Source: Litoreibacter arenae DSM 19593
Lineage (GTDB): Bacteria > Pseudomonadota > Alphaproteobacteria > Rhodobacterales > Rhodobacteraceae
Reading direction: 5' to 3'
NCBI RefSeq assembly: GCF_000442275.2
Contig: NZ_KE557306.1
Span: forward strand, 1,026,959-1,090,958
Length of the DNA stretch: 64,000 bases
The position numbers and the translations under genes were made by a program. Position 1 is the first letter of the stretch. Each line of letters begins with the position of its first letter. Shown here in pieces: positions 46,224-59,722 of the stretch. The notes under the pieces are model-generated. The model worked only from the letters and a program-made list of their open reading frames with translations. It had not been told where the DNA came from and ran no database searches.

Positions 46224-46676
46224 ATGTCCGAGAATACCGATCTGATCAAGCTCTATTCCGGTCAGATTCTGGCGTTGGCGGCGGATATTCCGCACACGGA
46301 ACGCCTGACCGCTCCACAGGCGTCCGTAAAAAAACGCTCGCCCTTGTGTGGCTCCACCGTGACCGTCGATCTGAACATGGACGGTGGCCGCGTCGCCGCG
46401 TTCGGGCAGGACGTCAAAGCCTGTGCCTTGGGTCAGGCGGCCGCGTCCGTCGTGGGGGCGGCCATCATCGGTCGCACGGAAGAAGAAGTCCACGCGGCCC
46501 AAGAACAGCTGAAGGCTATGCTTAAGTCCGACGGCCCCGCCCCCGATGCCCCGTTCGACGGGTTGAAAGTGCTCCTCCCCGCCAAGGACTTCCGCAATCG
46601 CCATGCGTCGATCATGTTGGCACTGGATGCCACGGTCGAGGCCATCGAACAGGTTCGCAACGCCAACTGCGCATAA
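46224..46676 (+). CDS. IscU/NifU-like Fe-S scaffold family protein lacking the third Cys
   Basis: A 150-residue IscU-fold protein: Cys42 in SPLCGSTVTVDL and Cys67 in DVKACALGQAAAS match the first two cluster ligands. In IscU the third is the Cys of KLHCS; here the matching segment LPAKDFRNRHASIMLALDA has Ala after His127. A Cys149 sits at the very C-terminus. It may be a SufU-like sulfur acceptor, a carrier or a variant scaffold. It stands alone, 23 kb from the suf operon, divergent from hisI. Confidence 0.9.
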   Translation: MSENTDLIKLYSGQILALAADIPHTERLTAPQASVKKRSPLCGSTVTVDLNMDGGRVAAFGQDVKACALGQAAASVVGAAIIGRTEEEVHAAQEQLKAMLKSDGPAPDAPFDGLKVLLPAKDFRNRHASIMLALDATVEAIEQVRNANCA

Positions 46677-46708
46677 AAAAACCGCCACGCCCGGGCGGGA
46701 CGCGGCGG
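46674..46708 (-). terminator. intrinsic terminator for the leftward small gene
   Basis: On the minus strand CCGCC...GGCGG encloses an inner CGCCCGGGCG hairpin and ends in seven T. The T run is on the minus side, so it ends leftward transcription from the small ORF at 46847-46969, supporting that ORF as a transcribed gene; it also lies just after the IscU-like gene. Confidence 0.7.
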
Positions 46709-46846
46709 CCAGTCGGCTTGTCTAGTCAGGTCAGATGCGCGAACCGGGAAAGAGGCAGCCGGTCAAGTTGGGGACAATGCGCATCCCCGGCGGGTTCGGG
46801 ACAAAAACCAGCCGAGCCTAGGGAAAAGACAGCAGGCAGTTAACTC

Positions 46847-46969
46847 TCAGAAAAGTGTGGGCATGTAGAGGGCGACAACCATCATCACACCGATGGCGGC
46901 AATGCCCGCGGCATCTTGTGCGAGGGCTTTAGGGGACCGGGCCAGAATGTCGCGAAGATCCTTGATCAT
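46847..46969 (-). CDS. small single-pass membrane protein (40 aa) with SOS box upstream
   Basis: A 40-residue ORF: a charged N-terminus MIKDLRDILARSPKALAQ precedes a hydrophobic segment GIAAIGVMMVVALYMPTLF that spans the membrane. GGGAG lies nine bases before ATG, a terminator follows, and an exact GAAC-N7-GAAC box lies 66 nt upstream. SOS-induced tiny membrane proteins that stop division (SidA, 29 aa) are known in Caulobacter, but sequence similarity is not evident. Function is inferred only from size and control. Confidence 0.65.
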   Translation of the reverse strand: MIKDLRDILARSPKALAQDAAGIAAIGVMMVVALYMPTLF

Positions 46970-47034
46970 GATTAATACTCCCTCACATTGCATTTTGTTG
47001 CATCTTTGTTCTCATTTTCTTCATGCTCTGTAAA

Positions 47035-47049
47035 GAACTTTTTAAGAAC
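47035..47049. promoter_or_regulatory. candidate LexA/SOS box (GAAC-N7-GAAC)
   Basis: GAACTTTTTAAGAAC matches the alphaproteobacterial SOS box GAAC-N7-GAAC (GTTC-N7-GTTC on the minus strand) exactly. A third GAAC follows at 47056-47059. It lies 66 nt upstream of the 40-residue membrane ORF and just after the recG stop, so the small ORF is its only likely target. Confidence 0.6.
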
Positions 47050-47088
47050 ATTTGCGAACAAACCGACTCAAAACAATGGGAAACATCC

Positions 47089-49179
47089 CTAACCAATTGA
47101 AATCAAACGAATAGCCCTATCCTGCTCCATCAACCACAAAAGAACACGTGCCGCGCGACCGCGCGAGGTTTCCAGCGCAGGGTCATCCCACAACAATTTC
47201 CGTGCATCGCTTTGCGCCACCGCCATGAGAGCCGTCTGTCGTTCCAAATCCGCGATCCGAAAACGGGGCAGCCCGCTCTGTGCAGTGCCGATCAGATCCC
47301 CTGCTCCGCGTATCGCTAGATCTTCCTCAGAAATTCTGAAACCGTCCTCGGTCTCTCGCATGATGCTCAGCCGCCGCCTAGCAGTCTCGGAGAGTGGCTC
47401 TTGAAATAACAACAAACAGGTGGAGGCCGCGTCACCGCGCCCAACCCGTCCGCGCAACTGGTGTAGCTGTGCCAGCCCGAAGCCCTCCGCCCGCTCGATC
47501 ACCATGATCGTGGCGTTCGGCACGTTCACGCCCACTTCGATCACCGTCGTGGCGACAAGCACAGAGGTTTCCCCAGCCACGAAGCTCGCCATCGCGGCGT
47601 CTTTCTCGGCAGGCGGCATTTGCCCGTGCACCAGCCCGACGGCGCCTTCCCCCAAAGCGGCGCGCAAGCGTTTAAAGCGATCTTCGGCGGCGGTCTTGTC
47701 GCTTAGCTCGCTTTCCTCCACCAGCGGGCAAACCCAATAGGCCTGCCGCCCTTCGGCAATCACGCCACGCAGTTTGGCGACCACCTCGTCGATCCGCTTG
47801 GTCGAAACCGTAGCCGTGGTGATCGGCTTACGCCCCGGCGGCTTTTCGTCCAGGACCGAGACGTCCATATCCCCGTATTGTGCCAGCGCAAGCGAACGCG
47901 GGATCGGCGTCGCTGTCATCACCAGAACGTCGACCGCTTTACCCTTGGCCCCCAGTTCAAAGCGTTGATTGACCCCGAACCGATGCTGCTCGTCCACCAC
48001 CGCCAAGCGCAAATCCTGAAACTGCACGTCTTCTTGGAAAACTGCGTGAGTGCCAACCAACACATGGATTTCGCCCTCTGCCAGCGCCTTCAGCTTGGAG
48101 GTGCGCTCAGCCCCCTTGTCGCGACCGGTCAACAGCTCCAGCACCACGCCTGCATCCCGCGCCAGAGGCACCAGGCTTTCGTGATGCTGGCGTGCCAGAA
48201 TTTCGGTGGGGGCCATCATAACCCCCTGCCCGCCAGCCTCGACGGCGGCAAGCAACGCCATAAACGCGACCAGCGTCTTGCCCGAGCCAACGTCACCTTG
48301 AAGCAGCCTGTTCATCCGGACCGGCGCTTCCATATCCGTCGCGATCTCGGCAATAGCCCGCGTCTGAGCACCCGTAAGGGCGTAGGGCAATGCCGCCAAA
48401 ACCCGCGATTGATGCCTGCCGGTTGCCTTGCTGGAAACCCCGGGCTTCGCCCGCACGGTCGCGCGCGCCAGCCCAAGGGTCAGTTGATGGGCGAATAGCT
48501 CGTCATAGGCCAATCGCTCCCGTGCGGGGTCAGTCGCCGTGATGTCAGCCAAGGATTTCGGATTATGCGCCGCGCGTATCGCCTCAGCCCAACTGGGCCA
48601 TCCTGCTTTCTTCTTTTGACCCAAATCGATCCACTCGTCCAACTCCGGCACCCGCTCCAGCGCCGAGTGCGCAGCCTTGTAAAACATCCGCTGCGTGATT
48701 CCATGAGTTAGCGGATAAACCGGCTCGAATGCGGGAATTTCAGACGCGCGGTCGACAGGCAGCATATAATCCGGATGTACCATTTGCGCCTGCCCATCGA
48801 ACATCTCTACCTTGCCGGACACCACGCGACGCTGACCGGACGGTAGCTGTTTTTGCAGGTAGTCGCCACGCGCGTGGAAGAACACCAACCGGAACTCCAG
48901 CTTTTCGTCGCGCACATGCACATGGTACGGGCGCCCCCGCGAACGCGGTGGCACATGCATGCCAATCTCGACTTCAACCGTGATCACATCCGGCAAAACC
49001 GCGTCCTGCACGGACGCCTTCACCGCACGGTCGATGCCGGACTGCGGCAGCGTCATCAGCAGGTCACGCGGCTTTTCGATGCCCAGTTGCTCGAAGTGCT
49101 TGGCCGTTTTCGGGCCAACGCCTTCCAGCTCCGTCAAAGCGGAGAAGAGCGGGAACAGGATTTCCGGACGCCCTGCCAT
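47089..49179 (-). CDS. recG: ATP-dependent DNA helicase RecG
   Basis: A 696-residue superfamily 2 helicase that remodels stalled forks and Holliday junctions. An N-terminal OB/wedge domain (about 60-160) precedes Walker A LLQGDVGSGKTLVAFMA, motif Ia MMAPTEILARQH, DEQH box LAVVDEQHRFG, VMTATPIPRSLALA, and C-terminal LVATTVIEVGVNVPNAT and QLRGRVGRG. It begins 7 nt after ligA ends, so the two are co-transcribed. Confidence 0.98.
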   Translation of the reverse strand: MAGRPEILFPLFSALTELEGVGPKTAKHFEQLGIEKPRDLLMTLPQSGIDRAVKASVQDAVLPDVITVEVEIGMHVPPRSRGRPYHVHVRDEKLEFRLVFFHARGDYLQKQLPSGQRRVVSGKVEMFDGQAQMVHPDYMLPVDRASEIPAFEPVYPLTHGITQRMFYKAAHSALERVPELDEWIDLGQKKKAGWPSWAEAIRAAHNPKSLADITATDPARERLAYDELFAHQLTLGLARATVRAKPGVSSKATGRHQSRVLAALPYALTGAQTRAIAEIATDMEAPVRMNRLLQGDVGSGKTLVAFMALLAAVEAGGQGVMMAPTEILARQHHESLVPLARDAGVVLELLTGRDKGAERTSKLKALAEGEIHVLVGTHAVFQEDVQFQDLRLAVVDEQHRFGVNQRFELGAKGKAVDVLVMTATPIPRSLALAQYGDMDVSVLDEKPPGRKPITTATVSTKRIDEVVAKLRGVIAEGRQAYWVCPLVEESELSDKTAAEDRFKRLRAALGEGAVGLVHGQMPPAEKDAAMASFVAGETSVLVATTVIEVGVNVPNATIMVIERAEGFGLAQLHQLRGRVGRGDAASTCLLLFQEPLSETARRRLSIMRETEDGFRISEEDLAIRGAGDLIGTAQSGLPRFRIADLERQTALMAVAQSDARKLLWDDPALETSRGRAARVLLWLMEQDRAIRLISIG

Positions 49180-58561: not shown

Positions 58562-59722
58562 TCAGCCGATCATCGCACTTACATGACCGTTTGCATCCAT
58601 GTAGTGGCGGTGCAGCCGTTGCAGGGCGATCCGCAGCACGACCTTGCCAGACCGTGCGGACCACCCCATCCGCTTTTCGGCGGTCTCCAACCCTTCCAGA
58701 AAGCAACAGCACCGCATGATGATATCGCTCAGGCCCGGCCCAAGATCGTCGAGGGCGGACAGCATCCGGTTGCGGGCGGTTTTCGGGCCATCAGGCAAGG
58801 TCTCATCACCCGCCATCTCGGCACGATCGCCAGAGAGCATGAACCTGTCCCAATTCTGCGCTGCATCCTGCCCCATCTGGGCCAGTTCGTAATCTTCACG
58901 GAACCGCTCGCCAGCCTGCACGAGTTCGGCGCTCAGGAACGAGCGGCCTGTTTTGTCGCGTCGCCGTGCCAGCATGGCTAGCGGGCTTTCGGCCATGGCC
59001 GGGCGTGACATACCTGCGACCGCGCCTTCGCCCGCCCAGTCATTCTTTACATCGCGAAACGGATTACAGCCATCCTGAAGGCCGCGTGCACGGCGCTTGC
59101 GCTCCATATCCTCAGCCAGATACTGCTTCAGCGCCGCGCGTCCGGCGGAGGTGATGGTGTAGCTCGCCACCCGTCCGCTGCGCGAACAGCTGATCCAGTC
59201 CTTCAACGCAAACGCCTGCGCGACCTCCCGTGAGACCACGGCCGTGCGGGTGGGTGCGCTGTCTTTGAACGAACGCAGAACCACAGCCTTGTCCATGTCA
59301 GCCGCAAGCGCCAGCACAGCGCCGGTCTCGCTGAGGCGGCGCAAAACGCGGCGGGCTTCTCGGGCGAGCCCCTCTGCGTCGTTCAGCAAAGCCATGCCCG
59401 TGGCGTCGCTGGCTTTAACAGAGATTTCAGAATGGTTACGGGCGTGTGCGATCATATTGTGTAGTCCTTGTTCGGAATCTGTCGTTTGGCTCGTGTTCAG
59501 CCTGGTGCTCAGGCGCTCAAGCGCTTCGTCTACCAACGGGTCGTCGCGCCGGTTTTCGAACCGGCGAACCTGACGCAGGATGGTGGAGGCGTGACACCCC
59601 TCCCGCCGCGCCAAGTCTCTGAGTGACAGCCCTTTTTCCGTGTGAATCAAATAGCGTCGCGCAGCTTGTGGAATCCAGTTCGACAGAAGCGATTCCGGTG
59701 GCGATACGGCGACAGAAAACAT
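58562..59722 (-). CDS. DUF6456 domain-containing putative DNA-binding protein
   Basis: A 386-residue protein. Residues 28-60 form an HTH-like unit (GLSLRDLARREGCHASTILRQ); residues 130-215 look like a winged helix (FALKDWISCSRSGRVASYTITSAGRAAL); the C-terminus (270-378) fits DUF6456 with LGPGLSDIIMRCCCFLEGLE and MGWSARSGKVVLRIAL. It is probably a regulator. SD GGGGGA precedes ATG. Divergent from the DUF6477 gene with a CtrA-like box between. Confidence 0.82.
   Translation of the reverse strand: MFSVAVSPPESLLSNWIPQAARRYLIHTEKGLSLRDLARREGCHASTILRQVRRFENRRDDPLVDEALERLSTRLNTSQTTDSEQGLHNMIAHARNHSEISVKASDATGMALLNDAEGLAREARRVLRRLSETGAVLALAADMDKAVVLRSFKDSAPTRTAVVSREVAQAFALKDWISCSRSGRVASYTITSAGRAALKQYLAEDMERKRRARGLQDGCNPFRDVKNDWAGEGAVAGMSRPAMAESPLAMLARRRDKTGRSFLSAELVQAGERFREDYELAQMGQDAAQNWDRFMLSGDRAEMAGDETLPDGPKTARNRMLSALDDLGPGLSDIIMRCCCFLEGLETAEKRMGWSARSGKVVLRIALQRLHRHYMDANGHVSAMIG

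Follow-up and report, generated by a model that had tools for sequence, protein, structure and literature searches.

In Escherichia coli, TisB is a single-transmembrane (TM) peptide of the SOS response that is under LexA control. DinQ, a further single-TM peptide of the SOS response, is described as having a pair of LexA operator sequences and being controlled by an antisense RNA (PMC3567139). SidA, a 29-amino-acid (aa) inner-membrane division inhibitor of the SOS response, is reported to act on FtsW, with SidA and DidA both targeting FtsW/I/N (PMC4211646). The SOS consensus of Caulobacter is given as GTTCN7GTTC, with one box in ~97% of its SOS promoters (PMC12700426). For the Rhodobacteraceae, we found no SOS division inhibitor named in the open-licence PubMed Central (PMC) literature. 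Here we describe a microprotein gene that lies directly after recG in a 64,000-nt stretch of the Litoreibacter arenae DSM 19593 genome (contig NZ_KE557306.1, positions 1,026,959 to 1,090,958; hereafter the window), together with a structured RNA in its 3' untranslated region (UTR); no mention of either was found in the same literature. Comparison with related genomes strongly supports an unannotated microprotein gene conserved across the Rhodobacteraceae, and makes it very probable that LexA represses it.

The gene was traced in 295 Rhodobacteraceae-family genomes (approximately one per genus) and in several sets of loci. As a single query, the 40-aa protein matched 27 of 61 genomes, its own included (E ≤ 0.01). 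Matches were obtained in 19 of 21 same-genus genomes, the two misses being 79% and 57% complete. Profile A2, built from 57 members of the microprotein family, matched 264 of the 295 family genomes and 273 of 292 genomes drawn from the order, all rows of which belong to the same family. Thirteen of the 19 profile-negatives in the order draw fall in one genus, g48, perhaps Paracoccus. When genomes were drawn from the class, the protein was matched in 4 of 289, all four being Rhodobacteraceae, and the 20 non-matches listed (of 285) were from other families. Twenty of the 31 A2-negative family genomes, the listed ones, were inspected, and 14 of these have recG at E ≤ 1e-30. In nine of the 14, recG is directly followed by an exact box of LexA type and by an open reading frame (ORF) for a hydrophobic product of ~40 aa, as scored by position and box rather than by significant similarity; box and ORF were not found after recG in the remaining five (G211, G153, G098, G237 and G028). 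A scan with the C-terminal part of RecG, from which the best 80 loci were kept and 77 had enough sequence, gave the same picture by position: 33 of the 36 nearest loci (L123-L158) have the ORF and 33 carry an exact box in the 450 nt that follow recG, versus no ORF and one box among the other 41. Part of the titles of L123-L158 name genera that we take to belong to the Rhodobacteraceae, and L157 and L158 are named as Alphaproteobacteria only. Carriers include records of Ruegeria, Tateyamaria, Roseovarius, Rhodobacter, Paracoccus and Planktomarina. A tblastn search of plasmids and phages with one member (L127) as query returned zero matches to E 0.1, and a mobile or phage origin was rejected on this result.

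Two observations concern the edges of this distribution. In L155 (Paracoccus aerius) and L266 (G067, genus g48), a strongly diverged ORF, with its box, persists after recG. The AT-rich, apparently streamlined genomes of loci L274, L275, L276 and L156 keep an ORF after recG with an unrecognisable 3' RNA; the exact box is present in the first three and absent from L156.

Among 19 same-genus sequences, the substitution pattern is coding-like and indicates that the ORF is under purifying selection, with pN 0.205 and pS 0.646 (ratio 0.32, uncorrected; 171 pairs) and variability of 0.18, 0.09 and 0.40 at the three codon positions. In alignment A3, which comprises the window sequence and 30 of 33 recG-selected members (L126, L148 and L155 were omitted as divergent), M1, D19, G22 and L34 are invariant and L26 and P37 almost so; D19 and L34 are also invariant in A2. 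The microprotein very probably inserts in the membrane; its single putative TM segment passed a Kyte-Doolittle hydropathy filter, on which our membrane-segment calls are based. K/R occurs in the C-terminal tail of 1 of 90 sequences. The natural reading is that the topology is probably N-in, C-out, which is weakly founded because the net charge of the N-terminal part up to the Asp is small. Curated protein models gave no match (best values 0.018 in Pfam with single members, 0.064 in NCBIfam and 0.04 in PHROGs), and a PDB profile search with the microprotein yielded none to E 1.

The operators were compared in two sets of loci, neither of which was chosen by box: 27 protein-selected loci, from which L036 (a 462-aa frame without box; 1 of 28 rows) had been removed as a false protein match, and 33 ORF-bearing recG-selected loci. 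A third set of 30 loci, picked by the pattern GTTCN7GTTCTTTAC, counts for the ORF only because it was box-selected; the ORF was present in 30/30. Operator 1 is an exact GTTCN7GTTC in 27/27 protein-selected and 32/33 recG-selected loci. It is followed by TTTAC in 27/27 and 28/33, respectively, with TTGAC replacing it in some diverged genera, and preceded at the same spacing by the half-site GTTC in 25/27 and 26/33. Operator 2 retains at least 7/8 consensus bases in 27/27 and 30/33 (57/60 together), and is an exact GAACN7GAAC in the diverged genera G021, G174, G169, G134 and G077. The spacer of operator 1 reads T[TC]AAAAA in 58/89 boxes. The pattern GTTCN7GTTCTTTAC occurs in 202 of the 295 family genomes, mostly once, as compared with 25 matches for its reversed control. 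On the gene strand, the promoter of the window locus can be written GTTC-N6-GTTC-N7-GTTC-TTTACA-N17-GAAC-N7-CAAC; downstream of the putative -35 TTTACA, no -10 element could be assigned with confidence.

The same syntax precedes lexA and recA. GAACN7GAAC was found 5' of lexA in 22/23 loci, drawn from relatives that extend into other alphaproteobacterial families, and a box 5' of recA in 19/25. This genome (G000) has one lexA (E 4.1e-55), and its own lexA box (GAACAACGGTAGAAC) and recA box (GAACAAGAGGCGAAC) agree in syntax with the microprotein operators. In recA promoters of the genus (L108 and others), a degenerate reverse box (GTTCTCTTTTTGTGC-like) was seen by eye upstream of the exact GAACN7GAAC, a pair that echoes the two-operator layout of the microprotein gene. 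The double operator is unusual, because nearly all Caulobacter SOS promoters carry a single box. The importance of the box lies in its conservation among relatives and not in counts, which are at chance level in window and genome and were rejected as evidence by themselves: GAACN7GAAC occurs twice in the window (2.46 expected) and 79 times genome-wide, versus 158 for a reversed control pattern. Its sole other copy in the window (59267-59281), inside a 386-aa ORF (58562-59722, minus strand), looks like chance.

lexA was detected in 282 of the 295 family genomes. Profile A2 was positive in 8 of the 13 genomes without lexA versus 256 of the 282 with it (Fisher p 0.0065), and in a smaller test lexA was present in 16/20 profile-negatives and 20/20 positives (p 0.11). 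Genome G077 (74% complete, without lexA, profile-negative) has a diverged ORF and box, which raises the number of keepers to at least 9/13. Co-loss with lexA was rejected as proof of LexA control, since the association is confounded by incomplete assemblies, most of the 13 being incomplete or in hundreds of contigs, and since counter-examples exist.

The 3' UTR is, as judged by comparison among relatives, a conserved structured RNA that ends in the intrinsic terminator of the mRNA. The terminator was found in 85/90 loci (misses: L050, L062, L147, L148 and L156; L028 and L045 are one locus represented twice), and the stretch that ends in it has a median length of 177 nt. Relative to dinucleotide shuffles, four motifs are enriched in the 81 RNA bodies: CTGCCT (74/81 vs 9.0 expected), TGCCTG (71/81 vs 9.0), TGTCCC (69/81 vs 11.4) and TGCCTC (39/81 vs 8.5). 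In predicted ensembles of 85 sequences, 100 of 133 TG[CT]CC[CT] motifs were >60% unpaired, against an unpaired background of 0.30-0.46 in example sequences; the motif was absent from 10/85. An alignment made with MAFFT and RNAalifold of 34 divergent UTRs (A4; 34 of 47 length-selected candidates) recovered only the terminator, with double changes kept at 7/12 stem pairs, and an alignment-free duplex test was used for this reason. The position of the motifs and the start of the terminator defined the arms, partners were permuted across species, the ORF served as negative control and the home genus was represented by one member. Own partners formed more stable duplexes than permuted ones for P1 (-14.8 vs -10.1 kcal/mol; n = 60; 0/5000 permutations), H1 (-9.3 vs -6.8 kcal/mol; n = 49; 0/5000) and H3 (-9.8 vs -6.1 kcal/mol; n = 21; 0/5000), as compared with -8.5 vs -8.7 kcal/mol in the ORF control (n = 62; 3673/5000), where the permutation counts are not probabilities because permutation ignores relatedness. 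In the genus alignment A5 (16/19 sequences; L017, L022 and L027 omitted), double changes were kept at 11/29 predicted pairs.

RNA model R1, built from A5 and thus from one genus, matched 178 of the 295 genomes (E ≤ 0.01), which is not a clean count because short pieces elsewhere that resemble terminators are among the weaker hits. It matched once in this genome (177 bits, E 1.8e-46), whose sequence was part of the training set. Among the 76 listed hits with E ≤ 1e-6, all 51 with a known ORF position were directly 3' of the ORF and all 14 others with a known box position were downstream of the box, so that 65/76 were placed in all. Searching 46600-47300 against Rfam gave nothing credible, the one sub-threshold match (E 0.13) lying inside recG. 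The short gap between stop codon and P1 suggests that the RNA shares the ORF transcript or starts inside the ORF.

The features of the window locus are collected in Table 1.

Table 1. Features of the microprotein locus of L. arenae DSM 19593 in window coordinates
Feature	Position	Strand	Description
Microprotein ORF	46969..46847	-	40 codons + stop; encodes MIKDLRDILARSPKALAQDAAGIAAIGVMMVVALYMPTLF; one hydrophobic segment (L009 passes hydropathy filter)
Shine-Dalgarno (SD) sequence GAGGGAG	46984..46978	-	Read from sequence; 8 nt 5' of ATG; purine tracts visible by eye (uncounted) ahead of the starts chosen in the compared loci
Operator 1, exact LexA box	47035-47049		GAACTTTTTAAGAAC on plus strand, GTTCTTAAAAAGTTC on gene strand; 65 nt 5' of ATG
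Operator 2, LexA box with one mismatch	47011..46997	-	GAACAAAGATGCAAC; orientation to gene as in lexA/recA boxes
Extra LexA-type half-site GTTC	47059..47056	-	Upstream of operator 1 by 10 bp
Putative -35 element TTTACA	47029..47034	-	Immediately 3' of operator 1
Conserved structured 3' UTR RNA	46847-46674	-	P1 as outer stem, C-rich-loop hairpins and the terminator
Intrinsic terminator	46710-46680	-	GC stem, then seven U
recG	49179..47089	-	Upstream neighbour, same strand; Pfam RecG_wedge, RecG_dom3_C, DEAD, Helicase_C

The locus had been picked out from the sequence alone, as a 40-codon ORF with a good SD, one TM segment and a minus-strand terminator, placed just after recG under an exact GAAC-N7-GAAC box. 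All of these are present, the TM segment as judged by hydropathy, the recG assignment being borne out by its Pfam domains and its stop codon lying 39 nt from operator 1. The box is upstream of the ORF as claimed, at a measured distance of 65 nt and not the 66 nt given. Lack of conservation of ORF and box in close relatives had been set beforehand as a possible refutation; when examined, both turned out to be conserved, and cross-genome comparison of the operators strongly supports the proposed SOS control. The observation as a whole is confirmed as real. The original prediction made no mention of the upstream half-site, the second box or the structured RNA that runs from the stop codon to the terminator. 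An alternative start at ATG 46993 (48 aa) was set aside because it precedes the SD and because relatives do not share the stretch 5' of the chosen start. Past the terminator lies a convergent 150-aa ORF (46224-46676, plus strand) without Pfam match at 1e-5, which we presume to resemble an iron-sulfur scaffold-type protein. A reverse-strand sequence of similar appearance was noticed by eye 3' of the RNA in several relatives.

We regard as the best explanation of the whole, with about an even chance of being right, an independent SOS transcription unit that combines a membrane microprotein delaying septation with a 3' small RNA (sRNA). As read from the promoter sequence, LexA bound to two operators that bracket the promoter would keep the unit off in the absence of damage; DNA damage and cleavage of LexA would then release one short transcript. 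Its 5' part would encode a 40-residue inner-membrane protein with a short, probably cytoplasmic N-terminal part containing conserved K/R, a hydrophobic helix with the conserved Asp at its start and, around LxLPxLF, a short tail that is probably periplasmic. By analogy with Caulobacter SidA, the microprotein would most likely delay septation through the late divisome FtsW/FtsI/FtsN, and division inhibition is our best guess at its role, with the chances for and against roughly balanced. The final ~170 nt would fold into a multi-hairpin RNA with C-rich loops and the terminator, and this RNA, whole or processed, would probably base-pair as an sRNA with purine-rich stretches in other mRNAs. Purine tracts that resemble SD sequences could be the partners of the C-rich loops. 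LhrC-type sRNAs offer a parallel for such pairing. We put sRNA activity of the 3' RNA at slightly short of an even chance. Overall, the interpretation attached to the original prediction, an SOS-controlled counterpart of SidA, is partly supported: SOS control and conservation across the Rhodobacteraceae have strong comparative support, and a division block as by SidA is plausible by analogy.

Several points weigh against this explanation. A division role is not forced, because toxins, too, occur among the small TM peptides of the SOS response. The mean net charge of the N-terminal part is small (+0.34), and hairpin H2 was weakly supported in the duplex test (-8.0 vs -6.8 kcal/mol; n = 33; 13/5000 permutations). 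In some AT-rich genomes, ORF and box persist but no RNA is recognisable. The ORF is kept in 8-9 of the 13 assemblies without detected lexA, and G113 (100% complete, 300 contigs, lexA not found) has it.

A peptide of the TisB/DinQ kind, which would lower membrane potential or alter membrane-linked DNA processes and so lead to dormancy rather than a divisome block, is the alternative that survives best, and we consider it unlikely. LexA control of a single TM peptide is the situation of DinQ, whose second LexA operator sequence is described as weak (PMC3567139). No sigma-70-type promoter-like site was found on either strand of 46600-47200, which is a weak test as it covers the sigma-70 consensus only, and the leader between operator 2 and the SD is short and poorly conserved. 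Mean SD unpairedness is 0.348 when the 3' UTR is present and 0.351 when it is left off (n = 81; assumed start site), with a drop >0.1 in 7 sequences and a rise >0.1 in 6; the SD is thus not hidden by the 3' UTR, and a type I toxin with 5'-3' fold-back found no support. The D, G, L and P that are conserved family-wide suggest a specific partner.

The RNA might itself be the main product, as an SOS-induced sRNA or a C-rich-loop decoy, and the ORF would then be accessory or carried along independently. Motif enrichment, the mostly unpaired state of the motifs and compensatory pairing all favor this, and sRNAs derived from 3' UTRs are described in Rhodobacter sphaeroides (PMC9779115, PMC8625941). 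The persistence of the ORF where the RNA is unrecognisable and the purifying selection on it argue the other way and make this distinctly unlikely. Quite improbable in our view is that the protein acts in some other membrane process tied to the SOS response, such as release of gene transfer agents (GTAs), an envelope function or membrane-linked recombination: for Dinoroseobacter shibae, PMC6473078 reports LexA sites predicted in silico in the promoters of GTA and pilus genes, of dprA and of recA, but nothing specific points to such a role here, the constant feature of the locus is its position after recG, and linkage to GTA genes was neither noticed nor sought. That the GTTC/GAAC elements bind a regulator other than LexA, as the unusually constant spacer of operator 1 and the ORFs kept in assemblies without detected lexA might suggest, is very improbable given that half-sites and spacing are identical before lexA and recA, that diverged genera have an exact box as operator 2, and that G211 (100% complete, without lexA) shows neither box nor ORF after recG and no R1 match.

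The Rhodobacteraceae play an important part in the sea and are noted for their GTAs. For this family, the locus represents a family-wide, unannotated candidate SOS division inhibitor, and the coupled structured RNA, which lacks a credible Rfam match, would extend the SOS response to the post-transcriptional level. It is possible, at somewhat less than an even chance, that one LexA-repressed transcript carries both a checkpoint microprotein and a regulatory RNA across the Rhodobacteraceae. If so, the repeated CUGCCU, UGUCCC and UGCCUC loops would either silence further mRNAs or sequester a factor, and DNA damage would turn on division arrest and post-transcriptional reprogramming together.

Among known systems, the arrangement of microprotein and 3' RNA can be likened by description to CcaF1 (RSP_6037) and CcsR1-4 of R. 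sphaeroides, a small-protein gene with downstream sRNAs, CcaF1 being a DUF1127 protein under heat-shock sigma control. UdsC/RSP_7527, from the same bacterial family, is an sRNA that originates in the 3' UTR of an mRNA encoding a hypothetical protein; it is described as 67 nt long with an RpoHII-dependent promoter (PMC9779115, PMC8625941), and because of this sigma factor it was set aside, by description, as the identity of the 3' RNA. The main texts of these two papers do not contain the word 'recG', and that of PMC8625941 contains neither 'LexA' nor 'SOS'. DinQ and TisB of E. coli have the LexA control and the single TM segment that we predict for the microprotein, and DinQ also has two LexA operator sequences (PMC3567139). 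DinQ differs by its described antisense RNA, none having been detected here by the sigma-70 consensus search of 46600-47200, and in contrast to both peptides the microprotein gene is conserved through one family with a structured 3' RNA. DidA of Caulobacter is a damage-induced small protein with a single TM segment that blocks division, as we propose here by analogy, but it has 71 aa and is described as SOS-independent (PMC4211646). The closest likeness in description, with no claim of homology, is to Caulobacter SidA, which is also tiny and from an alphaproteobacterium, and has the LexA-box control and inner-membrane location predicted for the microprotein; it differs in its length (29 aa vs 40 aa), and the microprotein gene is set apart from it by two operators, linkage to recG and a structured RNA at its 3' end.
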